Shown here: piece by piece, positions 22,784-27,583 of the stretch
Layout: every line of letters starts with the position of its first letter
Numbering within the stretch: the first letter of the stretch is position 1
Assembly: GCA_903881565.1 (NCBI GenBank)
Contig: CAIRTR010000065.1
Span: 1 to 45,094 of the forward strand
Source of the DNA: Oligoflexia bacterium
GTDB taxonomy: Bacteria > Bdellovibrionota > UBA1018
Length of the DNA stretch: 45,094 bases
Direction: 5' to 3'
Notes under the pieces: generated by a model
What the model saw: only the letters and a program-made list of their open reading frames with translations
What the model was told of the DNA's origin: nothing
Databases searched by the model: none
Program-made: the position numbers and the translations under genes

Positions 22784-23034
22784 TTAGCCCAGCTCTAGCG
22801 TCTGGCGCATGAGCTGTCCTATCTCTGTCATCTCGCGTAGGCTAAGCTCACCTATTTTCTTCTTGAGACGCTGTCCGACGTCGATGCTTCGGATTTGCTC
22901 AATCAAGACATAACGTTTGGGTGCCCCACATCGTTTAACAGGTCTGTCTGAACAATCAATACAGGTCGCTGTTTTCCCACTTCGGAGCCTTTATTAGGCT
23001 CAAGTGATGCTACCCAGATTTCTGAACGCTTCAT
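22784..23034 (-). pseudogene. mazF: Broken mazF/pemK-type toxin gene
   Basis: Reading leftward from ATG 23034 gives MKRSEIWVASLEPNKGSEVG then KQRPVLIVQTDLLNDVGHP, the exact start of a MazF endoribonuclease, but the frame ends after 43 codons. In another frame the end of MazF follows (VLIEQIRSIDVGQRLKKIGE then LSLREMTEIGQLM, stop at 22784). About 20-25 residues between the halves, normally including the conserved strand with the catalytic Thr/Ser, are deleted and the frame is shifted (251 bases total, not divisible by three). The ATG overlaps the stop of the antitoxin gene by four bases (ATGA), so the pair was a standard operon. The toxin is certainly inactive. Confidence 0.85.
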
Positions 23035-23294
23035 GGTTTATAATCTGATTTATGATCCAACCCATCTGCCAAAGACCGCTCCCACTCCTTAGATTCCCTT
23101 AAGCTCTCTGCTCTTGTTGCAAGCGAAGCCTCTCTCATCTTGCTAGCCAGGAGTTCTCTGGACTTCAAATCCACCCAAAGCCTCAACCCTTCTTCGATGG
23201 CGCGATTGCGTGGGATTTTTAAGCGCCGGGCGAGGCGATCCGCATCTTCTAGAAGAGCCTCATCTAATTTTGCACTCAATGCTGTCTTACTCAT
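23031..23294 (-). CDS. Ribbon-helix-helix antitoxin of the broken MazF pair
   Basis: An 87-residue protein with a ribbon-helix-helix N-terminus (LSAKLDEALLEDADRLARRLKIPRNRAIEEGLRLWVD) and a charged C-terminal tail (SKEWERSLADG) that would bind the toxin, as in MazE-like/CopG antitoxins paired with MazF. Ribosome site GGAGG and a good promoter with an overlapping palindrome lie upstream. The gene is intact although its toxin is broken, so it may persist as a repressor or as an anti-addiction remnant. Confidence 0.8.
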   Translation of the reverse strand: MSKTALSAKLDEALLEDADRLARRLKIPRNRAIEEGLRLWVDLKSRELLASKMREASLATRAESLRESKEWERSLADGLDHKSDYKP

Positions 23295-23517: not shown

Positions 23518-23886
23518 TCAAACTGCAATCTTCAGTGTGCTTACAACCTTTGCCACGTTCTCAAATGAGGGGTTAGATCCGCTATCAAGCATTCTAAATA
23601 CAGTCGCGCGTGATACGCCGGTTTGCTTCGAGATGTCGTCCTTATTGACTGCCCGAAGGTGGGCAGCAAGAACCTCTTTGAAACCATCAGTATCGCCTTC
23701 AAAAAACGCTTGAATAAGCGCTTCTCGAACAAGCTTAGAGTCTTTCAAGAAAACGTCAGGATTGTGCTCTTCGAGCTTCACACCCTTCTTGAGCTTTACA
23801 AGTGACATCTGCTCGACATTAAAGGGTTTACTCTTGGTAATTCGCAAGGATTTTTCTCGCTTGGCGGATGTCTTTACTCTGCCCAT
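23518..23886 (-). CDS. HTH antitoxin of a RelE-like pair (COG3636-type)
   Basis: A 122-residue protein. The C-terminal part (about residues 60-120) has an HTH of the type found in addiction-module antidotes: FKEVLAAHLRAVNKDDISKQ then TGVSRATVFRMLDSGSNPSF. The N-terminal 45 residues are basic and probably disordered until bound to toxin. It overlaps the 3' end of the toxin gene by 59 bases and has its own strong ribosome site (GGAGG 9 bases upstream). Toxin-first order with COG3657-type toxins is the known arrangement. It would repress its own promoter at 24137-24184. Confidence 0.8.
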   Translation of the reverse strand: MGRVKTSAKREKSLRITKSKPFNVEQMSLVKLKKGVKLEEHNPDVFLKDSKLVREALIQAFFEGDTDGFKEVLAAHLRAVNKDDISKQTGVSRATVFRMLDSGSNPSFENVAKVVSTLKIAV

Positions 23887-24124
23887 TTTTATTACCTCCT
23901 AAAATTAGAATTACGACGCGACCATCACTATCGAGTGTCATCGCGAAATATACTCGGCGCCCATTCTCCCACTTCAACTCAGCGAGATTGCCGCCGAGAT
24001 CTCTGGCTTTTCCAAAATGACCAAAGTCACGGATGCGCGAAAGTCGATCTTCGATTTGAATCCTGCTCTTTGGAGTTTCCTGTTCAAGCCAGTCGGTGAA
24101 CTCTGATAATCGCATCAGTTTCAT
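23828..24124 (-). CDS. RelE/ParE-superfamily toxin (COG3657-type addiction module killer)
   Basis: A 98-residue protein with the characteristic ending of this group: LSRIRDFGHFGKARDLGGNLAELKWENGRRVYFAMTLDSDGRVVILILGGNKNGQSKDIRQARKILANY. These proteins fold like RelE and are thought to cut mRNA on the ribosome; the Arg/Tyr pair in GRRVYF fits the active-site strand. All conserved parts are present, so it should be functional. Overlaps its HTH partner. Two palindromes stand between 13 and 60 bases upstream. Confidence 0.8.
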   Translation of the reverse strand: MKLMRLSEFTDWLEQETPKSRIQIEDRLSRIRDFGHFGKARDLGGNLAELKWENGRRVYFAMTLDSDGRVVILILGGNKNGQSKDIRQARKILANYQE

Positions 24125-24270: not shown

Positions 24271-25383
24271 TCATTGCGAAGTTCGCGAATTTAGCGAATA
24301 ACTCGTGCTGCGCCCCCCGCCCGAATTCTTGATCAGTATTTCCCGCTTCACAAGATCATCGATGTCACGAGAAGCACTGTCCTGCGAGCAACTCCCCAGC
24401 GCCGCCCATTTTGAAGAAGTCAATTTTGCATCGAAGCCATCAAGCAAGCGATTGATGATTTTTCGCTGCCGATCACTGAAGGGCTCTCCGTTGTGAGTCT
24501 CCCAAAACTGCGCTTTCATCAGAACGGACGAAAGAATCGTCTCCGCACCTAAGAACGCACGCCCCAGGCACCCCAAGAACCACACAAGCCAATCCGTGAT
24601 ATCCAAATCCCCTTTTTGAGTTGCTTCCAAAATATCGTAATAAGCTTTGCGCTCCGAGCAGATCTGGCTCGACATACTATAGAAACGCTGTGAACTATTT
24701 TCAGAGCGCGCCAGCGCCATATCGGCAATTGCTCTAGCAATTCGACCATTTCCATCGTCAAGCGGATGAAGAGTGATGAACCACAGATGTGCGATCCCTG
24801 CCTTAAGGACAGGATCGAGGGGTGTCTTGCCATTAAACCACGAGAGAAACGCTCGCATCTCTTGAGCAAGTCTCGCCGCCTCTGGCGCTTGATAATGAAT
24901 GCGCTCCTTTCCGATCGCCCCCGAAACCACCTGCATCGGGCCTGAGCTATCGTCCCGCCACTTCCCCACTCGGATCTTGGTCATCCCACTATGAGCAGTC
25001 GGAAAAAGGGCCGAGTGCCAACTAAAAAATCTCTGATTTGTGAGGGGCGAGCTATAATTTTGAGTGGCATCGACCATCATTTCAACAATGCCCTCAACGT
25101 TTCGCTCAGAAGCCACTAGCCCGGCCACGTCCAATCCCAGGCGCCGCGCCAAAGAGGAGCGTACCTGATCCCGATCCAGTCGCTCACCTTCAATTTCACT
25201 CGATTTGAGCACATCTTGTGTCAAATTTTGGAGGGCCGCCTCTTGCCGGAACTTAAAGCCTAATCCCTCCATCCGCCCAACCAGACGCCCCTGCTTATGC
25301 CGAAGGTCGGCCACCTGCTCGGCTAGACGTCGTTCGTTCCAATAGAACTCAGGCCAGTTTTTGCGCTCATAAATATATTTCAT
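24271..25383 (-). CDS. Fic-family AMP-transferase with C-terminal winged helix
   Basis: From ATG 25383 (370 residues; a GTG six codons earlier is unlikely). N-terminal DUF4172-like region (FYWNERRLAEQVADLRHKQG), then an inhibitory motif SSEIEG (residues 61-66, class II form S-x3-E-G), then the Fic core with HPLDDGNGRIAR (His206) that transfers AMP from ATP to target hydroxyls. The C-terminal part (about 305-370) reads as a winged helix, so it may bind the palindromes in its own promoter. The usual Phe in HPF is Leu here, which occurs in this subgroup. Target unknown. Cytosolic: no signal peptide. GGAG is 10 bases before the ATG. Confidence 0.9.
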   Translation of the reverse strand: MKYIYERKNWPEFYWNERRLAEQVADLRHKQGRLVGRMEGLGFKFRQEAALQNLTQDVLKSSEIEGERLDRDQVRSSLARRLGLDVAGLVASERNVEGIVEMMVDATQNYSSPLTNQRFFSWHSALFPTAHSGMTKIRVGKWRDDSSGPMQVVSGAIGKERIHYQAPEAARLAQEMRAFLSWFNGKTPLDPVLKAGIAHLWFITLHPLDDGNGRIARAIADMALARSENSSQRFYSMSSQICSERKAYYDILEATQKGDLDITDWLVWFLGCLGRAFLGAETILSSVLMKAQFWETHNGEPFSDRQRKIINRLLDGFDAKLTSSKWAALGSCSQDSASRDIDDLVKREILIKNSGGGRSTSYSLNSRTSQ

Positions 25384-25390
25384 TGAACTT

Positions 25391-25467
25391 AATCTCCGCA
25401 CTTCATACGGAGATTATACGCGCTAAACTCCGCACAATCAAGCGTTAATATCCGCATTACCTGCGGA
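25391..25467. promoter_or_regulatory. fic promoter embedded in three operator copies
   Basis: Read leftward, TTGATT (25441-25436), 17-base spacer, TATAAT (25418-25413): near-consensus sigma70. Operator 1 is the inverted repeat AATCTCCG...CGGAGATT (25391-25415), overlapping the -10 and start site and ending in the fic ribosome site. A half-site CTCCGCAC (25428-25435) lies in the spacer. Operator 2 is TCCGCA-ttacc-TGCGGA (25451-25467), upstream of the -35. The first and last share the pattern T-TCCGCA-T...CGGAGA. This layout indicates tight autorepression, and the second site also lies 47-63 bases before the divergent SelO-like gene. Confidence 0.8.
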
Positions 25468-25513
25468 GAATATCCCCCTCAAGCCCCCCCTCCTTATAGC
25501 CGAAAAGCCACTA

Positions 25514-27583
25514 ATGCTCCTGCGCCCTTGGCTCATCCGATTTCGCGTTCTTCTCGCCCTGCTTGCGGCGCTAGTTAGCTTCGCAGCATTTGCGATTGAG
25601 CCGATCACGACCCTCAGTGACGGTCCGCCTGCGCTGAAGGGCCAAGTGCTCCCCGATTCAAGCTATGTCGAGTTCAATGCCTACAAACTGGCGCACCCGA
25701 AACTGCTATGGATCAATTGGGACTATCTTCGTGAGCACGGCATTGAATTTCCAGCAGAAGGATTGACCCCTGAATTTGAATCCCAGATCATGGACACCTT
25801 GGCTTATGCCATCCCCAATGCAAGGGACCCTCCAGAAACGTTTCTCTCAATCGTGAAGAAGTTCTTTGCAGATCGATATGGCGGCGGCGGTATGGGCGTA
25901 AACTGGGGAAGCGGTCGCGCCGCTTCTGCCGGTAAAATTCAAATCAAAGGCATCGGCCAGACCCCTCTTGTGGGTGAAGGTCAGAGCTTTGAGCATGCGC
26001 ATGGGCGCGCCTCAATCGAGGAATCCATTCGCGAAGCGATCTGGGGAGAGGTCACTCATCAAGGGCTTCCCTATGGAGGCAATCGCACGATTGCGATTAT
26101 CGATACAGGGACCTCAACGCTTTGGGCAGACGGAGGCAAGCAGGCCAACGCGCTCATCATCAGGGAGGACCCGCTGCGCCCTGCTCACTACCTTGGTGTC
26201 CGTCAAGGCTCCGGAGCGGCTCTCAAAGCGACGGAACCCGAACGCGTAAAAACAGCGGTAAAATGGATCGACAAATCACTTCCCGGCACCGCGGTGGGGG
26301 CTCGCGAATACGTGAGCCGCATCGCAAGGCAATATGCCCATGCCTTCGCCACTCGACTTTTTCACGGCACAACCAGCGCCTCTAACTTTGAAATCTCAGG
26401 CCGGTTCCTCGACTTTGGAACCATGACCGCTCAACCGGGATATGCAAAAATCAAAGTCTTGAGTTTTGTCGATCCCGCTGGCGATATCACGGCCGTAAGA
26501 TCAAACCTTGTCCGGGATTTCTTCACCGAAATGAAGAGCACCGCCTTAGGGAATATTCCGGGTACGCCGGATGTAGACGAACTCTTGAAAGCATTTACCA
26601 TTCAATACGACCAGGCTCTGAGCACCAGTTTCGTAGAGCTTACAGGAATTCCTCCGCACCTTGCCAAAGCACACGAGAGCACTCGCGAGGAAACTCTCGG
26701 CAAACTCCTGCACACCCTTGCCACTATCGGGGCCAAAGAGGCTAATGTCGACAAAGCCATGATCGTTGACACCAGTACCTACGACATCAAGAAAATTCTG
26801 ACTCAACTCGCCGATGCCCATACGCTTGAACCCGCGGCGCTTGGGGGAGCCATCGCCCAATCTCTGCCCTCAGAAGAGTATCGCAACCCACTTACCCAAG
26901 CCTATTCAGCCTTCATGAAACCCGCCTTCGACATTGCCGAAAAAGCCGGAATCTCTGCCCAAAACCTCCACACCTACCTCGCTGAAAACGTGCGTCTTCG
27001 AAACGCCGAGGTGCCCGAACTTTATCGCGACCAGATGATGAGGACCAACGTCGCGCTGATCGACGAGTACGCACGAACGGGAGATGCCACCGCAATAGGC
27101 GATTCAATCGACTCGCGCATCCAAAACAATCGTCGCCAGTTCAAAAGCGCCGATCCCTATCAACTGATACTTCGCGAGGATGTTCATCCCTCAAGCGCCA
27201 CGACTTCGCGCTTTATTTATGATGCAAGAAGCGGAGAATATTTTATTGAAACCACGGTTCCCGTCAAGAATGGCGCCTTGAGTTTCTATGGCAATCAAAT
27301 CCCGGTCGAAGAAGCCGAAGGCGCTTTTCTGCGCTACACCACCAATAATTGGAAAAATGTTTTTGAGGCTCCCCTGATCAAACGTGACGGCCAGTGGAGA
27401 ATCAAAATCCCAACGGAGGCGCGCCGGTTTTCGGCCGAAATGGTGCTTCGTTCAAAAGATTCTAGAAAATGGTGGAAGGCCGGCGCCCGAAACCTAGCTT
27501 TGAGTTTTCGGCCTCTGCCTGCAATTCCCGCACGGTGCAGAGGTCTCAAGCAAGTGTTGGAAGACCTCGTTATAAATCCCTAA
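25514..27583 (+). CDS. Exported SelO-like (YdiU/UPF0061-related) pseudokinase, putative protein AMPylase
   Basis: A 689-residue protein with a signal peptide (residues 1-28, RFRVLLALLAALVSFAAFA). The core resembles SelO: GRAASAGKIQIKGIGQTPL with Lys145 where SelO has its nucleotide-binding Lys (LKGAGxTP), GRASIEESIREAI with Glu174 (SIREFL in SelO), FHGTTSASNFEISGRFLDFGT with Asn291 and the metal-binding Asp300 of a DFG-like motif (HGVxNTDN...DYGP in SelO). SelO flips ATP in its pocket and transfers AMP to proteins. Overall similarity is distant and most of the C-terminal 370 residues match nothing I know. Typical SelO is not exported, so the signal peptide is odd. Stop is two bases from the convergent gene. 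Fic, another AMPylase fold, is its divergent neighbour. Confidence 0.65.
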   Translation: MLLRPWLIRFRVLLALLAALVSFAAFAIEPITTLSDGPPALKGQVLPDSSYVEFNAYKLAHPKLLWINWDYLREHGIEFPAEGLTPEFESQIMDTLAYAIPNARDPPETFLSIVKKFFADRYGGGGMGVNWGSGRAASAGKIQIKGIGQTPLVGEGQSFEHAHGRASIEESIREAIWGEVTHQGLPYGGNRTIAIIDTGTSTLWADGGKQANALIIREDPLRPAHYLGVRQGSGAALKATEPERVKTAVKWIDKSLPGTAVGAREYVSRIARQYAHAFATRLFHGTTSASNFEISGRFLDFGTMTAQPGYAKIKVLSFVDPAGDITAVRSNLVRDFFTEMKSTALGNIPGTPDVDELLKAFTIQYDQALSTSFVELTGIPPHLAKAHESTREETLGKLLHTLATIGAKEANVDKAMIVDTSTYDIKKILTQLADAHTLEPAALGGAIAQSLPSEEYRNPLTQAYSAFMKPAFDIAEKAGISAQNLHTYLAENVRLRNAEVPELYRDQMMRTNVALIDEYARTGDATAIGDSIDSRIQNNRRQFKSADPYQLILREDVHPSSATTSRFIYDARSGEYFIETTVPVKNGALSFYGNQIPVEEAEGAFLRYTTNNWKNVFEAPLIKRDGQWRIKIPTEARRFSAEMVLRSKDSRKWWKAGARNLALSFRPLPAIPARCRGLKQVLEDLVINP

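Follow-up and report, generated by a model that had tools for sequence, protein, structure and literature searches.

The promoter of fic in the window (the whole 45,094-nucleotide stretch of DNA analyzed here) is enclosed by an array of five half-sites. This array very probably serves as operator in a negative autoregulatory loop, with local autorepression by the winged helix of Fic itself. This reading draws on sequence comparisons across relatives. An earlier note had proposed the C-terminal winged helix as the repressor, and the proposal is well supported: the array accompanies fic across phyla and its core tracks the recognition helix. The palindromes around the promoter, taken there as putative operators, are supported in that role by cross-phylum conservation and covariation.

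Half-sites and promoter upstream of fic

Five 11-bp half-sites lie upstream of fic (25390–25472; Table 1). Their order toward the gene is R5F-11-F7R5F, where F is TGCGGAGATTA, R is its reverse complement, and digits are gaps in bp, giving successive gaps of 5, 11, 7, and 5 bp. All five differ from TGCGGAGATTA by at most one mismatch, and the 45-kb window has just two further places that match as closely. The half-sites enclose a sigma70-like promoter, TTGATT-17-TATAAT, that has 10 of 12 consensus bases.

The layout described in the earlier note was confirmed, with one half-site in the spacer, palindrome O1 over part of the -10 element and the expected start site, and palindrome O2 above the -35 element. 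Half-site R of O1 shares the last four bases of the -10 element. Calling the promoter near-perfect is accurate for the -10 element and overstated for the -35 element and the whole, which is better described as good. What had been termed a triple operator consists of real sites, though a reading as five half-sites, with 5- and 7-bp gaps recurring in relatives, describes them better. The end given for it, 25467, was too short, as O2 reaches 25472.

The start codon of fic is the ATG at 25383, where homology begins in protein comparison; the longest open reading frame opens upstream of it with a GTG at 25401, within the operator. GGAG in half-site F of O1 (25397–25394) may double as a Shine-Dalgarno sequence, 10 nt before the ATG.

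Table 1. Coordinates of fic, its recognition helix, and the elements of its upstream region in the window
Feature	Position	Strand	Sequence or detail	Basis
fic, 370 aa	24271..25383	-	DUF4172 + Fic + C-terminal winged helix	Pfam, structure match, AlphaFold
Recognition helix of winged helix	24346..24384	-	residues 334-346, QDSASRDIDDLVK	AlphaFold secondary structure + covariation
Palindrome O1, 27 bp	25390..25416		TAATCTCCGTATGAAGTGCGGAGATTA	
Half-site F of O1	25390..25400	-	TGCGGAGATTA	11-mer match
Half-site R of O1	25406..25416	+	+ strand TACGGAGATTA; toward fic TAATCTCCGTA	11-mer match
-10 element	25413..25418	-	TATAAT, perfect	consensus comparison
Lone half-site F in -35/-10 spacer, first F of proximal F7R5F triad	25424..25434	-	TGCGGAGTTTA	
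-35 element	25436..25441	-	TTGATT, 4/6 consensus bases	consensus comparison
Palindrome O2, 27 bp	25446..25472		TATTCTCCGCAGGTAATGCGGATATTA	
Half-site F of O2	25446..25456	-	TGCGGATATTA	11-mer match
Half-site R of O2	25462..25472	+	+ strand TGCGGAGAATA; toward fic TATTCTCCGCA	11-mer match

Domains and motifs of Fic

Domains and motifs identify the fic product as a predicted class II Fic AMP transferase with DUF4172 and a winged helix. Pfam matches were found for DUF4172 (114.2 bits, cut-off 25) and Fic (52.5 bits, cut-off 24). The catalytic motif, HPLDDGNGRIAR, differs from HPFx[D/E]GNGRxxR by an F to L substitution and keeps the catalytic His, Asn, and Arg. An inhibitory motif, SSEIEG, occupies residues 61–66 and fits the [S/T]xxxE[G/N] pattern of an N-terminal inhibitory helix. 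Key residues of both motifs are nearly invariant among homologs, and the inhibitory glutamate is conserved in all 106 that were aligned. An AlphaFold model built from 48 aligned homologs (pLDDT 94.6) has a C-terminal winged helix with helices at residues 323–330 and 334–346 and strands at 350–352 and 362–364, which form the wing. The PADLOC SoFic profile matched residues 12–363 (134.5 bits), and the NCBIfam SoFic equivalog NF046030 gave 42 bits, well under its cut-off of 550. Judging from the sequence, an anti-phage defense role for this Fic is possible.

Conservation of the array across relatives

Homologs were drawn from genome contigs, GTDB genomes, viral contigs, and later plasmids, and reduced to 122 proteins with less than 80% identity. 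The F7R5F triad was scored by comparing three 11-mers with one another, with no motif given, against 100 dinucleotide shuffles per locus. At the window fic the triad scores 29 out of 33, and the top score among 100 shuffles of its upstream region is 22. Across the non-redundant set, the triad outscores every one of the 100 shuffles made from the same upstream region in 103 of 122 homologs and fails to do so in the remaining 19. Median scores are 27 upstream and 18 in coding controls, where the maximum is 23. Matches occur in at least six phyla, including that of the window, Pseudomonadota, Bacteroidota, Acidobacteriota, Verrucomicrobiota, and Planctomycetota.

Spacing between neighboring half-sites is dominated by F7R (n = 147) and R5F (n = 132), with F6R (n = 24) and R4F (n = 12) as minor variants. 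The array takes two forms. One has two triads separated by 8–11 bp, and the window array has this form without the outermost F; the other is a continuous F7R5F7R, seen in clades with ACCC and AGCC cores. Direct repeats at 34 bp were found in 69 of the 122 loci, compared with a control mean below two per distance. Three loci (L136, L138, and L187) have longer continuous arrays upstream, F7R5F7R5F7R with six half-sites, and the core of L187, TTAT, is an outlier. Of 83 non-Bacteroidota loci, 53 have a TATAAT-like hexamer whose start is exactly 2 nt ahead of the proximal R, the overlap seen in the window, and 42 of these 53 have TTG 16–18 bp upstream of the hexamer. The fixed offset between hexamer and R indicates that the nesting of promoter and operator is itself conserved.

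Genes next to fic vary among annotated plasmid loci, whereas the array stays with fic, and no conserved adjacent antitoxin gene was found among these loci. The upstream gene is divergent about as often as co-directional, based on rough ORF calling. In two roseobacter plasmids (L193 and L196), fic lies directly downstream of repABC and beside a RES/Xre toxin-antitoxin pair, a context that suggests a role tied to plasmid maintenance. Broken remnants of close fic relatives occur in genomes of the same family (G002:C37:13084-13321 and G013:C99:21442-21806) and suggest frequent loss in the family. Phage carriage was considered and rejected, as there was no match in annotated phages and one in viral contigs.

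Covariation of the recognition helix and the half-site core

Each half-site has a constant frame, TG....GAWTA, around a variable core at N3–N6, for which the loci have CGGA, CGGT, CGGC, CGTA, CAAC, ACCC, AGCC, AGGC, and other variants. These core letters track the recognition helix of Fic more strongly than other protein columns. Among approximately 362 columns, mutual information with the core is highest at residues 338, 334, and 335, which come fifth, first, and second in the recognition helix (S338, Q334, and D335 in the window). D335 pairs with C3 in 77 of 77 loci, Q334 with A6 in 35 of 38, K or R334 with C6 in 23 of 24, and K338 with ACC in 10 of 10, counts that are partly inflated by shared ancestry. 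Close-pair contrasts were made with 52 non-overlapping pairs. For position-6 changes, column 334 still comes out top of the 366 (p = 4.2e-5); within the D335 clade it again ranks first. For positions 3–5, column 338 is first (p = 1.5e-3, which fails correction for 366 columns).

The residue-to-base rule was fixed before the upstream regions of plasmid loci were analyzed, of which L192–L194 were known earlier by gene neighborhood. The test set comprised 13 plasmid loci whose triad was significant and whose identity was at least 39%. The rule gave the right N3 in 11 of 12 cases and the right N6 in 9 of 10, with one failed prediction each in L192 and L198. These loci have relatives in the training set and in part among themselves, so the result is a check of the rule and not proof. 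Proline at residue 334 gives an ambiguous core prediction.

The rule is inapplicable to plasmid homologs below approximately 38% identity (L206–L215), which have a different, TGAGCGATAGA-like repeat. In six plasmid loci with 33–37% identity (L206, L207, and L209–L212), this repeat lies upstream of fic and its spacing differs. This distant DUF4172-Fic clade probably uses the same design with another half-site.

Scope in the host genome and neighboring genes

Searching the 4.56-Mb host genome for R5F sites gave the two fic operators as the only close matches. Two weak sites, at C83:6117 (3' end of a gene) and C290:16867 (three mismatches), look like chance matches, and a looser pattern occurs at background (150 versus 152 in controls). 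A whole-genome regulon was rejected on the basis of these pattern searches. With no close target in the genome other than the fic promoter, a self-contained circuit is favored over a regulon, and the Fic circuit appears to be local.

Divergent from fic is a gene at 25514–27583 (+) that encodes 689 aa with a signal-peptide-like N-terminus and has a weak Pfam match to SelO, a protein adenylyltransferase (25.7 bits, cut-off 22.8). From this match, it possibly encodes a second AMP transferase, placed opposite fic with the operator between them. The ATG of this divergent gene lies 41 bp past O2, which might act on the gene as well. Directly downstream of fic, at 23518–24124 (-), is an HI1419/HI1420-type pair of a RelE/ParE-family toxin and its antidote, both just under their NCBIfam cut-offs. 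An 87-aa ORF at 23031–23294 (-) resembles a ribbon-helix-helix antitoxin by eye and had no Pfam match.

Comparison with known systems

CccR of Yersinia pseudotuberculosis is also a class II Fic with a C-terminal DNA-binding domain, and both it and the window fic have inverted repeats at the promoter. The two proteins are distant: structure 7XUX, which we take to be CccR, matched the window Fic with 28 bits by sequence and a TM of 0.5 by fold. CccR represses its own promoter via inverted repeats near the -35 and -10 elements, as determined by EMSA, footprinting, and lacZ assays (PMC9755527). Its footprint contains two 10-bp boxes, AGATAATCAT-N26-ATGATAATCT (PMC9755527), a sequence and spacing absent from the window array with its TGCGGAGATTA half-sites and 5- and 7-bp gaps. 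The autorepression effect of CccR is 3.3-fold (PMC9755527), which by analogy would fit homeostatic feedback and, equally well, an on/off switch of the normally off, quickly induced kind suggested in the earlier note. The geometry of CccR, with 70 angstrom between helices, numerically fits the distance of 21 bp between F7R cores, but was not relied on because the boxes of CccR itself are spaced differently. CccR is a secreted T6SS effector, whereas nothing suggests secretion of the window Fic.

The closest solved structure is CbFic2 of Coxiella burnetii (8CIL; 42% identity, TM 0.89), which has the same three domains. CbFic2 binds DNA through its winged helix, dimerizes on DNA, and changes from AMPylation to de-AMPylation (PMC10628234). 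Because it had no known target, it was probed with random DNA only (PMC10628234), which leaves it without a known operator, whereas the window fic has a defined candidate array. The anti-phage SoFic (PMC12249575) shares the general layout. SoFic structures have a TM of approximately 0.58 to the window Fic. CbFic2 acts on histone H3, a target without an equivalent in a free-living bacterium.

Type II toxin-antitoxin operons such as phd/doc are autorepressed through operator sites over the promoter. The window Fic differs from them in that a single polypeptide combines repressor, inhibitory helix, and enzyme, and no partner gene is conserved beside fic in the loci examined. For the LacI family, a recognition code has been deduced from operators next to regulator genes (PMC2978694). 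The approach is shared, and the fold and family differ, with dedicated transcription factors on one side and an enzyme on the other.

Proposed mechanism and alternative explanations

At the array we infer physical binding by Fic, dimer occupancy, repression, and a physiological purpose. Fic would bind 11-bp half-sites of the form TG-N3-N4-N5-N6-GAWTA via its C-terminal winged helix, with Q334, D335, and S338 reading core positions 3–6. Dimers on the proximal F7R5F triad and on the upstream R5F would cover the spacer, the -10 element, the start site, and the leader, and would exclude RNA polymerase. The outcome would be a potentially toxic AMP transferase that stays scarce and self-limited. Sofic is toxic even when expression is slight or leaky (PMC12249575), which offers a reason for tight control of fic. 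Published work backs the model indirectly, through self-repression by CccR (PMC9755527) and DNA binding by the winged helix of CbFic2 (PMC10628234). The odd number of half-sites counts against the autorepression model, as it does not match simple dimers.

An extension of this model, rather than a replacement, is that operator DNA also acts as an allosteric off-switch: the array would dimerize Fic and convert the AMP transferase to a de-AMPylase or an inactive state, so that one event controls expression and activity. Stripping Fic from the array would then turn on both production and AMPylation. CbFic2, the best structural match, dimerizes via the winged helix on DNA of at least 20 bp, and its dimers de-AMPylate while its monomers AMPylate (PMC10628234). 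The invariant inhibitory glutamate also points this way. However, the tests of CbFic2 used random DNA, which makes a promoter array unnecessary for the effect, and a single promoter per cell holds few Fic molecules; we regard the dual role as unlikely. A different division of labor, in which Fic at O2 recruits polymerase for activation and the proximal triad represses, would suit the many relatives in which one of two triads lies above the -35 element. The gap between triads, which ranges from 8 to 11 bp, was likewise counted for this two-level arrangement, but the variable phase of the upstream triad does not point to a fixed polymerase contact. Single-triad loci have their sites over the core promoter, a repressor position, and activation from O2 is very unlikely.

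The array could instead be bound by another protein, such as a neighboring antitoxin or a global regulator, and not by Fic. The HI1419/HI1420-type pair downstream of fic includes an HTH antidote, and many plasmid relatives are near toxin-antitoxin genes. Against this, the array keeps company with fic while neighbors change between loci, and a third protein would leave the tracking of core letters by the Fic recognition helix unexplained, so that we judge this reading highly improbable. Extremely improbable is a function of the palindromes in RNA, as a leader hairpin that masks the ribosome site. The final half-site does overlap the possible Shine-Dalgarno sequence, and self-pairing of O1 is conceivable, but the covariation partner is a DNA-reading helix. 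Most of the array would be untranscribed, since the expected start site is downstream of both O2 and the spacer half-site and the -10 element includes part of the R arm of O1; the hairpin was rejected because of the arm at the -10 element.

Novelty and implications

Full-text searches of open-licence papers found Fic autorepression for the distant CccR only, and no account of the present operator or its code. Both the architecture shared across phyla and the recognition code appear new, and an earlier description beyond that literature is conceivable. DUF4172-Fic proteins occur widely, on chromosomes as well as plasmids, and this cross-phylum family now has a specific predicted operator, an architecture that recurs, and a code linking residues to bases. 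The defined DNA permits testing of sequence-specific binding, autorepression, and DNA control of AMPylation in DUF4172-Fic proteins. If the array did control both expression and activity, all members of the DUF4172-Fic family would be enzymes that double as transcription factors, with a specificity code that can be read.
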